Program-made: the position numbers and the translations under genes
Notes under the pieces: model-generated
The model's input: the letters and a program-made list of their open reading frames with translations, nothing else
Database searches by the model: none
What the model was told of the DNA's origin: nothing
Origin: Phycisphaerae bacterium
Lineage (GTDB): Bacteria > Planctomycetota > Phycisphaerae > Phycisphaerales > SM1A02
DNA length: 39,208 nucleotides
Assembly (NCBI GenBank): GCA_016873275.1
Contig: VGXO01000026.1
Coordinates: forward strand, 1-39,208
Direction: 5' to 3'
In this document: in pieces, positions 13,641 through 20,614 of the stretch
Position numbering within the stretch: the stretch's first letter is position 1
Layout of the letters: each line of letters starts with the position of its first letter

Positions 13641-13821
13641 GACCCGCGGTCGTCCCCCGACCTCGCCTCGTCGAGCGCCGGGGGCAGCGTTCTCGGATCC
13701 GCCGCGCGACGCTTCCTCCTCTTCGGGGTCTCCCGACCTCATGGACCCCGGGGGATCGGTCGATAACCGCCCTGTCCCCGACCGCCCGTCGGTCGCCGTC
13801 CTGAATCCCGAGAGCCGCCCG

Positions 13822-15846
13822 ATGCCCCGCAACATCCCCGTCGGAAACGGAGAGCTCCTCGTCACCTTCGACGACCTCTACCGGATCCGAGACCTCTATT
13901 GGCCGCACGTCGGGATGCCCAACCACACCTGCGGGCACGTGCAGCGCTTCGGCGTGTGGGTCGACGGCGAGTTCGCGTGGGTCGAGAGCGGCGAGTGGAC
14001 GCGGAGCCTCCGCTACAAGCCGGACACCCTCGTCACCGAGGTCAGGCTCCGCAACGACCGCCTCGGGCTCGAGCTCGTCTGCCAGGATGCGGTCGACTAC
14101 TGGAGCCCGGTCTACTTCCGGAAGATCACCGCGACCGACCTGCGGCAGCGACCGCGGGAGATCCGCCTCTTCTTCCACCACGACATCTCGGTCAACGAGA
14201 GTCCGGTCGGCGACACGGTGAACTGGGACCCGACGACCGAGGGGCTCATCCACTACAAGAACGATTGCTACCTGCTGATCAACGGCTTCGACGGCCGCAG
14301 CTACGGCATCGACACCTGGGCGACCGGCGCGAAGCGCATCGGCGATGCCGAGGGCACCTGGCGCGACGCCGAGGACGGCATGCTGAGCCAGAACGCGATC
14401 GCGCAGGGCTCGGTCGACTCGACGATCGGCCTCAAGATCTCGCTGCGCCCGGGCGGCACGACCTCGGCGTTCTACTGGATCGCGGTGGGCCGCACCTACG
14501 CCTCCGTCGTCGAGCTCAACCGCAAGGTCCACGAGAAGAGCCCGCAGCGGATGATGGACCGCACCGAGGCGTACTGGCGCTGGTGGTCGTGCAAGGAGCC
14601 GATCGACTTCACCCCGCTGCCCGAGCCGATCCGCGACCTCTACACGCGGAGCGCCCTGATCGTCCGCACCCAGATCGACAACGCCGGGGCGATCCTCGCC
14701 GCGAACGACTCGGACATCACCCACTTCGCCGGGGACACCTACTCCTACTGCTGGCCTCGCGACGGCGCGCTCGTCGCGCGGGCGCTCGTCCTCGCCGGGC
14801 AGGGCGACCTCAGCCGGCAGTTCTTCGGGTTCTGCGAGCGGGCGCTCGCGAAGACCCCCTACTTCCTGCACAAGTACAACCCAAGCGCCACCCTCGCCTC
14901 GAGCTGGCATCCCTGGGCGATCGACGGTCGGCAGATCCTGCCGATCCAGCAGGACGAGACCTCGCTCGTGATCTGGGCGCTCCGGCGCCACTTCGAGGTC
15001 TTCCGCGACGTCGAGTTCGCCAAGGGCGTCTACAACCGCCTCGTCGTCGAGCCGGCGACGTGGATCCTCGACTACCGCGACCACAACGGCCTGCCGCTCC
15101 CGAGCTGGGACCTGTGGGAGGAGCGGCGCGGCATCCACCTCTTCACCGTCGCGACGACGATCGGCGCGCTGCAGGCGGCGGCGGCGTTCTGCCACGACAT
15201 GGGCGCGTTCGACCGCGCCGCGGAGTTCTCCGAGGGCGCCGAGCGCATGAAGGGCGCGATGCTGCGGCATCTCTGGCAGCCGGAGCTCAAGCGCTTCGCC
15301 CGCATGGCGACGCCGCTCGAGGATGGCTCCTACCGCCTCGACATGACCCTCGACGCCTCGGCGTACGGGCTCTTCGCCTTCGGGGCGCTTCCCGCCGACG
15401 ACCCTCGCGTCGTCTCGCACATGGAGGCGCTGCGGGAGCGGCTCTGGGTCAAGACCTCGATCGGCGGCGTCGCCCGCTACGAGAACGACTACTACCACCA
15501 GGTCGAGCAACAGAACCTCAAGGACGTCCCGGGCAACCCGTGGATCATCTGCACGCTCTGGCTCGCCGAGTGGGAGATCGCGAAGGCGAGCTCCGTCGAG
15601 GAGCTCCAGCAGGCGGTCAAGTACCTCGAGTGGACGCAGGCGCGGGCGCTCCCCTCGGGCGTCCTCGCGGAGCAGGTCAATCCCTTCGATGGTCGCCCGA
15701 TCTCGGTCAGCCCGCTGACCTGGTCGCACGCGACGGTCATGTCGGTGGTGGTCCAGTACCTCCTCAAGCACGCGGAACTGACCGGACGCAGCTCCGGCTG
15801 CCTCGCGGAGCTGGCGATCGCCCGGTCCCGGACGCGACGGAGCTGA
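13822..15846 (+). CDS. Glycoside hydrolase family 15 (glucoamylase-like)
   Basis: 674-residue GH15 enzyme. The bacterial-type N-terminal beta-sandwich opens at MPRNIPVGNGELLVTFD and runs to about residue 275; the (alpha/alpha)6 catalytic barrel follows, with YSYCWPRDGALV (substrate-binding), SWHPWAIDG, QQDETSLVIWAL and the acid motif SWDLWEE (E433/E434). The second catalytic Glu is E617 in GVLAEQVNPFDG. The family hydrolyses alpha-glucosidic bonds: glucoamylase, isomaltase or trehalase activity are all possible. No signal peptide is seen, so it is probably cytoplasmic, as expected for glycogen or trehalose use. The ATG at 13822 is chosen where family similarity begins; an in-frame ATG at 13741 would add 27 residues. 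Confidence 0.92.
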   Translation: MPRNIPVGNGELLVTFDDLYRIRDLYWPHVGMPNHTCGHVQRFGVWVDGEFAWVESGEWTRSLRYKPDTLVTEVRLRNDRLGLELVCQDAVDYWSPVYFRKITATDLRQRPREIRLFFHHDISVNESPVGDTVNWDPTTEGLIHYKNDCYLLINGFDGRSYGIDTWATGAKRIGDAEGTWRDAEDGMLSQNAIAQGSVDSTIGLKISLRPGGTTSAFYWIAVGRTYASVVELNRKVHEKSPQRMMDRTEAYWRWWSCKEPIDFTPLPEPIRDLYTRSALIVRTQIDNAGAILAANDSDITHFAGDTYSYCWPRDGALVARALVLAGQGDLSRQFFGFCERALAKTPYFLHKYNPSATLASSWHPWAIDGRQILPIQQDETSLVIWALRRHFEVFRDVEFAKGVYNRLVVEPATWILDYRDHNGLPLPSWDLWEERRGIHLFTVATTIGALQAAAAFCHDMGAFDRAAEFSEGAERMKGAMLRHLWQPELKRFARMATPLEDGSYRLDMTLDASAYGLFAFGALPADDPRVVSHMEALRERLWVKTSIGGVARYENDYYHQVEQQNLKDVPGNPWIICTLWLAEWEIAKASSVEELQQAVKYLEWTQARALPSGVLAEQVNPFDGRPISVSPLTWSHATVMSVVVQYLLKHAELTGRSSGCLAELAIARSRTRRS

Positions 15847-15971: not shown

Positions 15972-17099
15972 ATGCCCCCGATGCGTCGGGATGACCTCCA
16001 CGCCGCCGAGACCCTCGACTCCGTCGCGAAGGCGATCGGCGAGTGGACCCTCGCGCTCATGTCCGAGCGGGACCCCTCCTTCGCCGCGCGGCTCGAGGGC
16101 GACGCCCGCCGGCTCTGGCGGGGAGAGCTCAAGAACCGCCTCGACCATCTCGCCGAGGCGGTCGCCTGCCGCTGCCCCGAGCTCCTCGCCCGAAACGTCC
16201 AGTGGAGCCGCGAGGCGTTCGAGTCGAGGGGACTGCCGCTCGAGGACCTCCGCGCGAGCCTCGAGGCGATGCGGACGGTCCTCCTCGAGCAGCTTCCGGC
16301 GCCGATCGCGAAGACCGCCGCGGAGCTCGTGGACGCGGGGCTCGCGCGGCTGCACGCCCCTGCCGCCGGTCGCGCGGACCGCGCCGCGAACGAGCGTCAG
16401 GAGCCGCTCGCCGGCGACGATCCGGACGTGATCGCGGCGCGGCTCTACCTGCTCCACATGCTCGACCGCGAGCAGGAGAAGGCGTCGGAGATCGTCCTCG
16501 ACCTCCAGTCCCGCGGGCGCGGCACCGTCGAGATCTACGAGAAGGTCCTCGCCCCGGCGCTCGCCGAGGTCGGTCGCATGTGGCACCTCCGCGAGGCGTC
16601 GGTCGCCGACGAGCACTTCTCGACCGCGGGCACGCGGCTCGTGATGGCGGAGCTCCGCCAGCACGCCCACCGCGAGGCGCCCTGCGGTCGAAGCGTGCTC
16701 TGCACCGCGGTGGGCGGCGACCTCCACGACCTCGGGATCCGCATGGTCGCCGACGTCTTCGAGTTCGCCGGCTGGCATGCCGAGTGCCTCGGCGCGGACA
16801 TGCCCGCGGAGGAGGTGGCGGTTGCCCTCGAGTCGCGGGTGACCGGGCGCTTCGACCTGCTCGCGGTCGCCGCGAACACCACCCTCGGGCTCCGCCCGAT
16901 GGCGCGGCTCGTCGAGACGGTGCGGCGCTCCCGCGCCGGCAACGGAATCAAGATCCTCGTCGGCGGACTTCCCTTCCGGCTTGCCCCCGAGCTCGCCGAG
17001 GCGGTCGGTGCCGACGGCGTCGCCCGGACCGCGAGCGAGGCGGTGCGGCTCGCCGATCGGCTGCTCGCGGCGTCCCCCGCGGCATCGCCGCGATCCTGA
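15972..17099 (+). CDS. B12-binding sensor with CarH-type light motif
   Basis: 375 residues. The N-terminal helical domain (about 10-115; GEWTLALMSERDPSF, LRASLEAMRTVLLEQL) resembles the RsbRD/RsbT co-antagonist or histidine-kinase N-terminal helical type. After a linker comes a helical B12 cap (about 150-225) containing W204-x9-E214-H215 (WHLREASVADEH), the spacing found in adenosylcobalamin photoreceptors of the CarH/LitR family. A Rossmann B12 domain follows, with D250-x-H252-x-x-G255 (DLHDLG) and a glycine pair in ILVGGLPF. No MerR DNA-binding domain and no methyltransferase domain is present, so output must go through a partner or through the helical N-terminus. ATG 15972 or 15981 may be used. 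Light sensing is inferred from the motif only. Confidence 0.82.
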   Translation: MPPMRRDDLHAAETLDSVAKAIGEWTLALMSERDPSFAARLEGDARRLWRGELKNRLDHLAEAVACRCPELLARNVQWSREAFESRGLPLEDLRASLEAMRTVLLEQLPAPIAKTAAELVDAGLARLHAPAAGRADRAANERQEPLAGDDPDVIAARLYLLHMLDREQEKASEIVLDLQSRGRGTVEIYEKVLAPALAEVGRMWHLREASVADEHFSTAGTRLVMAELRQHAHREAPCGRSVLCTAVGGDLHDLGIRMVADVFEFAGWHAECLGADMPAEEVAVALESRVTGRFDLLAVAANTTLGLRPMARLVETVRRSRAGNGIKILVGGLPFRLAPELAEAVGADGVARTASEAVRLADRLLAASPAASPRS

Positions 17100-17266: not shown

Positions 17267-17395
17267 ATGGAAGCCCTCACCGCCGTCGCCGTCGCCAGCC
17301 TCATCCGTTCGATCCAGGAGATCTCCGCGGAGCTCAAGCGGATCAACGAGCAGCTCAAGTCGCTCGAGCGGACCATCGAGAAGACGCGGAAGTAG
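17267..17395 (+). CDS. 42-residue coiled-coil protein, unknown function
   Basis: Short gene starting at ATG 17267 with GGAG 7 nt upstream (GGAGACCGATC then ATG), a better ribosome site than most neighbours have. The product has a hydrophobic N-terminal part (MEALTAVAVASLIRSIQE) and a charged heptad-like helix (ISAELKRINEQLKSLER) ending in EKTRK. It looks like a small amphipathic or coiled-coil helix that could bind a membrane or a partner. Nearly all third codon positions are G or C. No homologue is recognised. It follows the B12 sensor on the same strand, separated by 167 nt and a hairpin, and is closed by a strong hairpin at 17460-17486. Confidence 0.65.
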   Translation: MEALTAVAVASLIRSIQEISAELKRINEQLKSLERTIEKTRK

Positions 17396-17561: not shown

Positions 17562-18380
17562 CTAGTCGCGCCGGCCGAACAGCATCGCGACGCGGAAGAC
17601 CATCTTGAGCGCCTCCATGTAGACCCACGCGAGGGTCACGATGAGCCCGAACGCCGCGTACCACTCCATCGACTTGGGGCTGCCCGCGGCGACGATCTCC
17701 TCGACCTGCCGGAAGTCCACGATGAACCAGAGCGACGCGATGATCAGGATGAAGGCGTTGAGACCGAGCCCGATCAGCGCCGCGCTGCCCCCTTCCATCG
17801 CCGAGGAGAGGGAGAGGAAGGGCATCGCGACGCCGAAGAGCGAGAGCACGAAGCTGACGAGGTAGGTCACGAAGATGCCCGCGGTCGCGACCCAGAGGAT
17901 CCGAGTGAAGGTCTCGCCGCCCCGCAGCACGCCGAGCGAGTAGAGGGTCAGCATGGTGAGCAGGATGGCGATCGTCACCACGAACGCCTGCAGCGCGATG
18001 CCGCCGGGCACCTGAATTCCCTGCTGTGCGAGGATGTTCTGGAAGAGCATGCTCACCGCGCCGAGGAGGAAGCCCTCGACGATCGCGTAGATCGGTCCGA
18101 GCCACATCGCCCGCGCCGGGTTCCCCCGCAGGGCGAAGAAGATCCCGAGCACCACGACGAGCGCCGTGATGTTCGCGATCCAGAGCGCCCCCGGGAACGC
18201 CGAGGTGACCTGCCAGCCGACGAAGCCGGAGGCGGTCGCCATGAGCGCCATGAGGATCGTCTTGTTGACCACGCCCTGGACGGTCGCGGTCTGGGCGCGA
18301 CCCGACGCGAGCCCTCCGGTCTGGAAGACGTTCGGCAGGTCGTCGCCGGCGAGGACGGGATTGGTCGACTGCAGGTTCAT
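17562..18380 (-). CDS. Bax inhibitor-1/YccA family membrane protein
   Basis: 272-residue polytopic protein of the BI-1 (TMBIM) family. About 40 N-terminal hydrophilic residues containing a QTGGLASG segment precede seven hydrophobic helices. The family-like features include the FVGWQ first helix, the ARAMWLGPIYAIVEGFLLGAVS loop-helix region, WFIVDFRQVEEIV near the sixth helix, and MEWYAAFGLIVTLAWVYMEAL near the end. Family members bind to or conduct Ca2+ or regulate membrane proteases; the role in this organism is unknown. The ATG at 18380 has a strong GGAGG 8 nt upstream, which decides the start. It appears to be its own transcript. Confidence 0.9.
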   Translation of the reverse strand: MNLQSTNPVLAGDDLPNVFQTGGLASGRAQTATVQGVVNKTILMALMATASGFVGWQVTSAFPGALWIANITALVVVLGIFFALRGNPARAMWLGPIYAIVEGFLLGAVSMLFQNILAQQGIQVPGGIALQAFVVTIAILLTMLTLYSLGVLRGGETFTRILWVATAGIFVTYLVSFVLSLFGVAMPFLSLSSAMEGGSAALIGLGLNAFILIIASLWFIVDFRQVEEIVAAGSPKSMEWYAAFGLIVTLAWVYMEALKMVFRVAMLFGRRD

Positions 18381-18505
18381 GGGGAGTTCCTCCGTGAGGC
18401 GGGAGCGTCTCGAGAAGCCAGCGCCCTCCAAGTGGGCGTGCGGGCGCGGCGGATGGTAGGAATCGGACTTGCCGAGGTCATCCCTGCAGCCGAGGTCGAT
18501 CGCGA

Positions 18506-18548: not shown

Positions 18549-19178
18549 TCACCCGCCGCCCGACGCTGCGGCGTCCCTCGCCGCCGGCTCCGCCGCCACC
18601 GCGAGACGGTCGATGACCTTCACCCGGAGCGACGCGAGCCGGTCGCCGTCGGCGGCGACCTCCTCGGCATCCTTCGAGAGGTCCGCCGCCTTGAGCTGCG
18701 CCGAGACCTCGTCGAGGAGCGCGTCCGCGTAGCCGAGCGCCTCGACCTGCGTCAGCAGCACCCGCCGCTCGAAGGCGTCGCCCGAGGAGAAGAGGAGCTC
18801 CCGCGTCGTCGCGCCCTTGATCGCCGACCGCACCCGGACCTCGGGCGCGGGAAGTCCCGTCGCGTCGAGCGGGATCGAGCTTGCCTTGGCGATCGTCTCG
18901 AGCCGCGACGCCGCCTCGCCGCAGGTCGTGGCGATCTCGCGGAGGAGCCCGGCGGTCGCCTCGCTCGGCGACTTGATCGCGAGGATGCCGTCCACGCCGG
19001 CGTTGTCGGAGAGGACCCGCCACGCGAGGGACATCGCCTGCGATCGCTCGTCGATGGTGCCGCGGATCGCGGGCGGTCGCGTCCCGCAGCCGAGGAGGCT
19101 CGACGTCGAGCCCGCCGCCGCGGCGGCGAATAGGACCGCCCAGCTGACGCCCCGCCTCGCCCGACCTGCCCCGGTCAC
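18549..19178 (-). CDS. Putative lipoprotein, mostly helical
   Basis: 209 residues, family not recognised. A basic n-region (GAGRARRG) and hydrophobic core (VSWAVLFAAAAAG) end in the lipobox SLLGC (C31), so it should be a membrane-anchored lipoprotein. The mature part is rich in Ala and charged residues and reads as a helical bundle (EATAGLLREIATTCGEAASR; VLLTQVEALGYADALLDEVS), loosely like DUF4142-type ferritin-like helical proteins, though I would not assign that family. The GTG start at 19178 overlaps the phoH stop by 4 nt (GTGA) and has GGAGG close upstream, so it is translationally coupled to phoH. The sequence does not show what connects them. Confidence 0.75.
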   Translation of the reverse strand: MTGAGRARRGVSWAVLFAAAAAGSTSSLLGCGTRPPAIRGTIDERSQAMSLAWRVLSDNAGVDGILAIKSPSEATAGLLREIATTCGEAASRLETIAKASSIPLDATGLPAPEVRVRSAIKGATTRELLFSSGDAFERRVLLTQVEALGYADALLDEVSAQLKAADLSKDAEEVAADGDRLASLRVKVIDRLAVAAEPAARDAAASGGG

Positions 19179-20614
19179 AGCACCTCCGCCGCGAGGCTCG
19201 CGAGGTCGCTCCGCTCGGTCTTCGCGAGCGTGACGTGCCCGGCGAGCCGGTAGCCGCGCATGCGGTCGATCAGGTGGGTCAGCCCGTTGCTCGAGGCGTC
19301 GAGGTAGGGGTGATCGATCTGCCCGATGTCGCCGCAGAGGACGATCTTCGTGCCGTCGCCGACGCGGGAGACGATCGTCTTCACCTCGTGGGGCGAGAGG
19401 TTCTGCGCCTCGTCGACCACCATGAACTGGTGCGGGATGCTCCGCCCGCGGATGTAGGTGAGCGGCTCCATCACCAGCTTGCCGGTCGCCATCAGCTGGT
19501 CGAGCCGCTGCTCGACCGAGCGGCTCTCCGCGTCCTCGCGGCCGCCGCCGCGGGTCGAGAGCAGGTAGGTGACGTTGTCGAAGATCGGCTGCATCCAGAG
19601 CGAGAGCTTCTCGTCCTTGTCGCCGGGCAGGAAGCCGATGTCGCGCCCGAGCGGCATGATCGGCCGCGCCGCGAGCAGCTTCTCGAAGCGCTCCTCGCGG
19701 ATCGTCTTCTGCAGGCCCGCCGCGAGGGCGAGCAGCGTCTTGCCCGTGCCCGCGGGACCGATCATCGAGACGAGCTTCACGTCGTCGTCGAGGAGGAGGT
19801 CGAGCGCCATCGTCTGCTGGACGTTCCGCGCCATCACGCCGAAGACCGGCTTGCGCGGCCCGGTCACCGGGATCAGCCGACCGGTGTCGGAGAGGAACCG
19901 CGCAAGCCCCGCGTGCGAGGCATCCTCCCGGTCCTGCAGCACCACGTACTCGTTCGGCACCGCCTCGAGCCGCCCCGGCTCGTCGCCGCGCCGCGAGGAG
20001 ACCGGCAGGTCGGCGAACCGCTCGAAGGGAAGCTGCCGCTCGGTGTAGAGCTCGTCGATCAGGGCGCCCGGGGCGAGGACCTCGACGTAGCCGGTCCGCA
20101 GCCACTGGGCATCGACGCGGTCCGCCTCGAAGTCCTCCGCGGGGATGCCGAGGGCGTCGCACTTGACCCGGGCGTTGATGTCCTTCGAGATGAAGATGGT
20201 CCGCTTGCCCTGGCGATGCAGCGCGTGGGCGACGCCGAGGATGCGGTTGTCGGACTGGTCGAGGTCGAGGGCGAAGGGCGAGGAGAGGTCGCAGCGGTCG
20301 ATGCGGATCGAGCCGCCCTGCTCGTTCCAGGTGATCCCCTCGAAGAGCCGCCCCTTCTCCCGAAGCCCGTCGAGGCTGCGGATCACCTGCCGCGCGTTGC
20401 GGCCGGTCTCGTCGTTGTTCTTCTTGAAGCCGTCGAGCTCCTCGATCACCGTGAGGGGGATCACCACCTCGTGCTCGGCGAACTTGAAGATCGACTGCGG
20501 GTTGTGCAGCAGGACGTTGGTGTCGAGGACGAAGTGCTTGCGGACGCCTGCCGACGCCGCCCGGGCGGGGGTCGAGCCCTCGGAGGTCTCGACGGACGCG
20601 TGATGCTTCGTCAA
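19175..20614 (-). CDS. PIN-PhoH family ATPase (YlaK-like)
   Basis: 479-residue fusion of an N-terminal PIN nuclease domain (about 25-165) and a C-terminal PhoH ATPase domain (about 255-475). The PIN part begins with KHFVLDTNVLLHNP (first acid D31), then VIEELDGFKK, and QSDNRILGVAHAL and ISKDINARVK supply further acids. The PhoH part has Walker A GPAGTGKT (286-293), FLPGDKDEKLSLWMQPIFDN, Walker B VVDEAQN (D401, E402) and GDIGQIDHPYLD. Such PIN-PhoH proteins act as RNA helicase/ribonucleases in characterised actinobacterial cases. The start is TTG at 20614, the only start upstream of the PIN core; AGGAAGG lies about 12 nt before it. It is first in an operon with the lipoprotein. Confidence 0.93.
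   Translation of the reverse strand: MTKHHASVETSEGSTPARAASAGVRKHFVLDTNVLLHNPQSIFKFAEHEVVIPLTVIEELDGFKKNNDETGRNARQVIRSLDGLREKGRLFEGITWNEQGGSIRIDRCDLSSPFALDLDQSDNRILGVAHALHRQGKRTIFISKDINARVKCDALGIPAEDFEADRVDAQWLRTGYVEVLAPGALIDELYTERQLPFERFADLPVSSRRGDEPGRLEAVPNEYVVLQDREDASHAGLARFLSDTGRLIPVTGPRKPVFGVMARNVQQTMALDLLLDDDVKLVSMIGPAGTGKTLLALAAGLQKTIREERFEKLLAARPIMPLGRDIGFLPGDKDEKLSLWMQPIFDNVTYLLSTRGGGREDAESRSVEQRLDQLMATGKLVMEPLTYIRGRSIPHQFMVVDEAQNLSPHEVKTIVSRVGDGTKIVLCGDIGQIDHPYLDASSNGLTHLIDRMRGYRLAGHVTLAKTERSDLASLAAEVL

Follow-up and report, generated by a model that had tools for sequence, protein, structure and literature searches.

A probable stand-alone photocobilin, with a phycobiliprotein-like globin ahead of a CarH-type B12 domain, encoded by a planctomycete

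The window (the whole stretch of DNA analysed here, 39,208 nucleotides in length) constitutes a single contig in a genome of 3.23 Mb and 136 contigs, estimated to be 100% complete. The open reading frame of interest encodes a 375-amino-acid protein (Table 1) and represents a real gene, as 44 homologs, at 27-64% identity, align along its length; the closest database relatives are 66% and 64% identical to it. The true start may be M4 (position 15981), as Met or Val stands in this column in many of the aligned sequences listed. Pfam places a B12-binding_2 domain at residues 161-228 (9.8e-11) and a B12-binding domain at residues 241-358 (1.1e-17), both over the curated cut-offs; at E-values up to 1, residues 1-140 have no Pfam match and the protein as a whole matches no DNA-binding domain.

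Table 1. Features of the photocobilin-type locus, in window coordinates.
Feature	Position	Strand	Basis
Photocobilin-type protein, 375 aa	15972..17099	+	ORF and translation; AlphaFold2 model of whole protein, pLDDT 93.4, pTM 0.91
N-terminal phycobiliprotein/photoglobin-like domain, about residues 6-129	15987..16358	+	Profile match to SasPcob biliverdin domain, 8.6e-11; predicted fold, Z 18.0/17.7
Cobalamin-domain four-helix bundle (PF02607), residues 161-228, with G201xxW204 and E214-H215	16452..16655	+	Pfam, alignment
Rossmann-type B12-binding domain (PF02310; residues 241-358) containing G249xxH252 (H252 at the lower axial ligand position) and G274xxxP278	16692..17045	+	Pfam, alignment, predicted fold
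GH15 glucosidase-like gene, next upstream of the photocobilin gene	13741..15846	+	Pfam 5.2e-26; same order in 15/24 family loci

The published signature of light sensing by adenosylcobalamin (AdoCbl) consists of the elements GxxW, EH, GxxH and GxxxP which, in the text available from that paper, were found in 1561 of 128,000 cobalamin-binding-domain sequences after clustering at 80% identity (PMC11796333). All four are present here, as G201-W204, E214-H215, G249-H252 and G274-P278, and none is conserved in fewer than 41 of the 45 sequences aligned: W204, E214, H252, G201 and G274 are invariant, H215 and P278 are conserved in 44, and G249 in 41. The alignment comprises the window sequence and 44 homologs (47 distinct sequences, minus the incomplete L027 and L035), and is not a full set of the carriers counted in the genome survey below. 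Both the W-x9-E-H spacing and the DLHDLG motif (D250-L-H252-D-L-G255) noted in a preliminary description of this DNA are confirmed in the translation. One homolog, L012, carries ER instead of EH, a naturally occurring change at the light switch.

Translated in all six frames, the window contains the fuller pattern, G-x2-W-x9-E-H, a single time, and among the four B12-binding matches in the genome this pattern is carried by the photocobilin only; a regex search found none in the own-genome stretches L001, L002 and L006, the first two of which encode, as judged by eye, mutase-like and MetH-like proteins, respectively. We make no use of its presence in 71/71 named loci, a trivial result given that the loci were found with an EH-containing pattern. 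The last of those stretches (L006, 1441-2208, reverse strand, on own-genome contig C1; the same gene as L004) encodes a second stand-alone protein of B12-binding fold that aligns without the EH pair and the axial His, and is possibly a cobalamin-independent relative. In the predicted model, the B12 domain superposes on that of SasPcob with a Z-score of 26.8 (rmsd 1.7, 208 residues aligned) and on CarH with a Z-score of about 20. Pfam, signature residues and fold together support the earlier proposal of a CarH-type AdoCbl light-sensing domain lacking a DNA-binding domain; there is no Pfam match to MerR, in whose place sits a domain of globin fold. The protein reaches 47.7 bits with the NCBIfam CarH model, for which the cut-off is 400, a result that we count against a photocobilin reading of the protein.

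The N-terminus had been described as 'RsbRD-like' and helical, of which the second part holds and the first does not, as both profile and fold point to a phycobiliprotein-like globin. A phmmer search of the PDB with the 375-residue protein returned SasPcob first, with residues 42-104 placed on its C-terminal globin (i-Evalue 0.016), and the best PDB relatives by profile A1, each matched in both the B12 and globin domains, are the photocobilins SasPcob (2.7e-49; globin part 2e-7) and AbPcob (5.5e-43; globin part 0.0022). Profile A2, built from 21 N-domains (the window's and those of 20 of the 44 homologs, from the forward strand of their loci), matches the SasPcob globin, its biliverdin-binding domain, at 8.6e-11, AbPcob at 0.027 and allophycocyanin beta at 0.088; the Pfam Phycobilisome family is touched by one of the 45 members (0.024). 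An AlphaFold2 model of the isolated domain (pLDDT 93.1, pTM 0.86) is closest to allophycocyanin (Z 18.0), SasPcob (Z 17.7, with 120 residues aligned at rmsd 2.3) and smURFP (Z 17.1), where differences of up to about one Z unit count as ties. Two points count against the photocobilin reading here: the Foldseek E-values are weak (1.7e-3 and up), and the AlphaFold2 models are predicted and ligand-free. The label 'RsbRD-like' applies only loosely, through the related non-heme globin of RsbR, which serves as an outgroup to the photoglobins (PMC10151467). Pfam RsbRD is matched by 0/45 sequences at an E-value of 0.1, and RsbR is absent among the 50 best fold-search rows, a result still compatible with a remote relation. 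On homology and predicted fold, the N-terminal domain is a globin of the bilin-binding type. The region also contains two cysteines, C66 and C68.

The putative bilin pocket can be compared with that of SasPcob, for which the published numbering equals the chain sequence plus six (checked on W61, H108 and W296 in alignments). The residues of note are W49, E52, R56, W78 and R86. Profile alignment places SasPcob Asp270 at E52 and Trp296 at W78, such that, of the biliverdin contacts, the Trp is kept and the Asp is replaced by Glu, the latter being a further point against the photocobilin reading. W78 is invariant in the 45 sequences, with W49 and R86 each conserved in 44 and R56 in 42. Position 52 is Glu in 26, Asp in 5 and another residue in 14 (an acid in 31/45); it is acidic in 28/28 aligned members of the window's family and varies outside it, where H, N, A, Y, F, C and Q are found besides D and E.

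Synthesising the sequence signature, domain identities, predicted fold and conservation established here, we propose, with a probability of about 0.8, that the protein is a stand-alone planctomycete photocobilin: a green-light AdoCbl switch with its output in trans. The order of globin then B12 domain follows from the phycobiliprotein-like nature of the N-terminus. We count in favour of this the sequence and fold matches to SasPcob and AbPcob, the conserved signature, W78 and the position of E52, along with the adenosyltransferase, photolyase-family and GGDEF genes and two settings described below, the one at L065, which resembles a known light cluster, and the GGDEF gene adjoining the L075 homolog. 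Photocobilins, as defined in the literature, convert in both green and red light, change oligomeric state when illuminated and activate diguanylate cyclase in cis and in trans (PMC10979010). We infer AdoCbl and bilin binding, photochemistry, a dimer-to-monomer change and output in trans by analogy with SasPcob, AbDPcob and CarH. In the dark, His252 would bind AdoCbl ‘base-off’, with the adenosyl group resting against Trp204 and, over the dimer interface, Glu214-His215; green light would then break the Co-C bond, shift the Glu-His helix and open the dimer. The globin is envisaged as packing on the corrin edge so that, if it holds a bilin, red light could act on the cobalamin as well. As the 375-residue protein has no output domain, we propose that the changed oligomer or surface may bind and alter a separate partner protein.

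Of the 301 genomes sampled from the window's order, 68 have a homolog spanning both domains. These carriers are genomes with a best match of 1.4e-25 or better, and include three (G277, G293 and G299) in which the gene is split over contigs; weaker matches were left out, those listed covering mainly the B12 part and starting at residue 107 or later. Five records entitled as Bacteroidia, Kuenenia, Limnohabitans or Chitinophaga (L080, L084, L099, L102 and L119) encode proteins that are 37-46% identical, and are likely to be mislabelled bins. A PF01126 heme oxygenase was found in 127/301 genomes of the order, and the model was checked on 14 control genomes, of which three gave a match, each above the cut-off. 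None was found in the window's genome, complete as this is estimated to be, which is one of 31/35 carriers of the window's family with no match; the four with one compare with 20/33 among the other carriers. Taken over all 301 genomes, carriers show no enrichment in heme oxygenase (24/68 versus 103/233, Fisher p 0.21). Among the 45 aligned sequences, an acid at position 52 accompanies the enzyme in 5/13 as compared with 26/32 of those without, a reverse trend that follows kinship. Searching for the HugZ type (PF10615) yielded a single partial match, which at 22 bits lies right on the cut-off and which we did not count as a heme oxygenase. With neither enrichment in carriers nor a link to the acid at position 52, heme oxygenase was rejected as a companion gene. 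The absence of PF01126, the lack of enrichment and the failure of the acid to track heme oxygenase all weigh against the photocobilin reading. A second chromophore might be a scavenged bilin, another ligand or the product of another enzyme, or there may be none.

It is quite conceivable, though we lean the other way, that the protein senses light with cobalamin only, the globin serving as a ‘lid’ that no longer binds bilin and the response being limited to green light. This is a narrower form of the photocobilin reading and does not exclude it, so that our confidences in the two overlap. The missing heme oxygenase, in the genome and in most family carriers, would suit it well, as would the variability of position 52 outside the family and the weak binding of biliverdin by AbPcob (PMC10979010). 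Set against this are the near-complete conservation of W78 and R86 and the acid found at position 52 in every aligned family member, as a mere lid need not keep a pocket acid.

The window's genome encodes an AdoCbl-forming adenosyltransferase (4.8e-61), a photolyase-family protein (7.3e-94) and two GGDEF proteins. The first of these also fits a sensor of B12 status, working in the dark on a CarH-type fold with any light response incidental, and any AdoCbl-binding switch would report on AdoCbl supply too; such a role is nonetheless improbable, given that the light-signature residues are near invariant, that a photolyase-family gene is present, and that some related records name lakes or ponds (Baikal, LacPavin, pond), which are lit habitats.

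Turning from this to partners for the proposed photocobilin, neighbouring genes were called with a crude codon-composition script, which missed the homolog itself in 5/41 loci, and the 60 neighbour proteins scanned with Pfam are a selection from those calls. The preliminary description had suggested a search of conserved neighbourhoods for partner kinases or sigma-factor regulators; no single partner proved common to the loci, whilst sigma-factor systems do appear in some. In the window, Pfam identifies no regulator in an adjoining gene, which again counts against the photocobilin reading. The GH15 gene lies 125 bases from the photocobilin gene on the same strand, and is its next upstream, same-strand neighbour in 15/24 loci of the window's family, the window included; one further locus (L054) has it on the opposite strand, and in eight it was not found. 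It is a candidate operon partner, albeit one whose link may reflect inherited gene order rather than function, since FabF lies in the same stretch in 21/24 family loci (the exceptions being the window's own stretch, L046 and L055). Genes for a Bax-inhibitor-like protein (17562-18431, reverse strand) and a PhoH-PIN protein (19175-20614, reverse strand) recur near the homolog in many family loci. Between the former and the photocobilin gene sits a 42-residue ORF (17267-17395, forward strand), coiled-coil-like by eye, which was set aside as a partner as it has no match in same-genus loci.

Amongst 17 loci of other families, four (L060, L063, L065 and L073) have ECF sigma and fasciclin genes in the fetched stretch, with an RskA-type anti-sigma gene also in three of them; SRPBCC-type genes are found at L062, L070, L072 and L074 (the last by tblastn only) and old-yellow-enzyme genes at L060, L064 and L069. 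The L065 homolog has beside it genes for CMAS, DUF1365, an FAD amine oxidase and a desaturase, a setting comparable to the light-inducible cluster of LitR, which consists of phrB, SDR, FAD-oxidoreductase and UfaM (PMC9758184). PAS-LuxR regulators are present at L066. At L075 (8009-10080) the homolog lies immediately next to a separate GGDEF gene, and the pair may correspond, as two genes, to the published fusion of photocobilin and cyclase. Our leads as partners are the GH15 neighbour, a diguanylate cyclase and a sigma-factor system.

An input module for a stressosome-like ‘partner switch’ of the RsbR/STAS-RsbT kind, as raised in the preliminary description, is very unlikely. The genome does hold STAS (seven matches) and HATPase_c_2 genes (five, three of them over the cut-off), and interaction networks predict STAS and SpoIIE partners for SasPcob (PMC10979010); the genome's STAS and HATPase_c_2 matches, however, all lie on contigs other than the window's, neither domain turned up in the scan of 60 proteins encoded near homologs, the 375-residue protein has no STAS domain by Pfam, and RsbRD goes unmatched throughout the alignment. 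We have set the RsbRD/stressosome reading aside on Pfam, fold and neighbourhood. That the protein is instead a methyl-transfer corrinoid protein akin to MtbC or MtgC can be given almost no weight, as the NCBIfam matches that might suggest it (MtgC 7.6e-16, 58 bits, plus other corrinoid proteins) fall at 46-58 bits for MtgC, MtbC and pyl_corrinoid against curated cut-offs of 215-370, none of five scanned neighbouring window proteins is a methyltransferase, and the motif is absent from the B12 proteins examined for comparison, namely the corrinoid protein 1y80 (which lacks the W, EH and GxxxP), the genome's own MetH-like protein and its stand-alone paralogue, so that the earlier refuting condition, a motif widespread in B12 proteins linked to methyltransferases, finds no support among them.

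Going further, we can imagine a branch of planctomycete photocobilins that works without a recognisable PF01126 heme oxygenase, its acidic pocket capturing a bilin made by neighbours (lake cyanobacteria, for example) or some other ligand, and its sensor controlling GH15. This is a long shot; if true, the sensor would respond jointly to light and to a pigment from outside, and would govern the breakdown of sugar polymers through the GH15 glucosidase. Independently of this, probable photoreceptors of the two-chromophore, B12/bilin type are documented in planctomycetes, their carriers pose a testable puzzle as to the origin of the second chromophore, and their neighbourhoods supply candidate partners for stand-alone photocobilins, the function of which has been called less clear (PMC10979010). 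Globin-first photocobilins could also become optogenetic parts.

Finally, the protein can be set beside known systems. With the non-heme globin of RsbRD/RsbR it shares a related globin class (PMC10151467), but neither a Pfam match at an E-value of 0.1 nor a STAS domain; phycobiliproteins, BBAG and photoglobins are alike in the fold of about residues 1-129. CarH/LitR (PDB 5C8A, 5C8D) have the same AdoCbl light-sensing fold and W/EH/H motifs, whereas the MerR DNA-binding domain is theirs only and the globin is extra here. AbDPcob, the Acidimicrobiaceae photocobilin-diguanylate cyclase (PDB 8J2Y), has both sensory domains and the motifs, but with a cyclase fused to them and His at the Asp270 position. 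SasPcob of Saccharothrix syringae (PDB 8J2W/8J2X) comes with the same parts, being stand-alone, with a CarH-type B12 domain, a phycobiliprotein-like globin, the light motifs and the Trp296 position; it differs in its reversed domain order and in having Asp270 where the globin-first planctomycete protein has Glu52, and the planctomycete genome is further set apart from it by the absence of a PF01126 match. Photocobilins have been sorted into groups according to which end of the protein carries the B12 domain (Zhang et al. 2024, PMC10979010), and further BBD-CBD fusions have been mentioned (PMC11796333). The earlier suggestion that such an output had not been described is not borne out, since both stand-alone and fused photocobilins acting by protein-protein contact are already published (PMC10979010). 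Judged against the open-licence literature, a scope distinct from that of the published sequence networks, a planctomycete photocobilin may be undescribed in print; most likely, then, the protein is of the kind described in 2024, the planctomycete example being new and the kind itself not.
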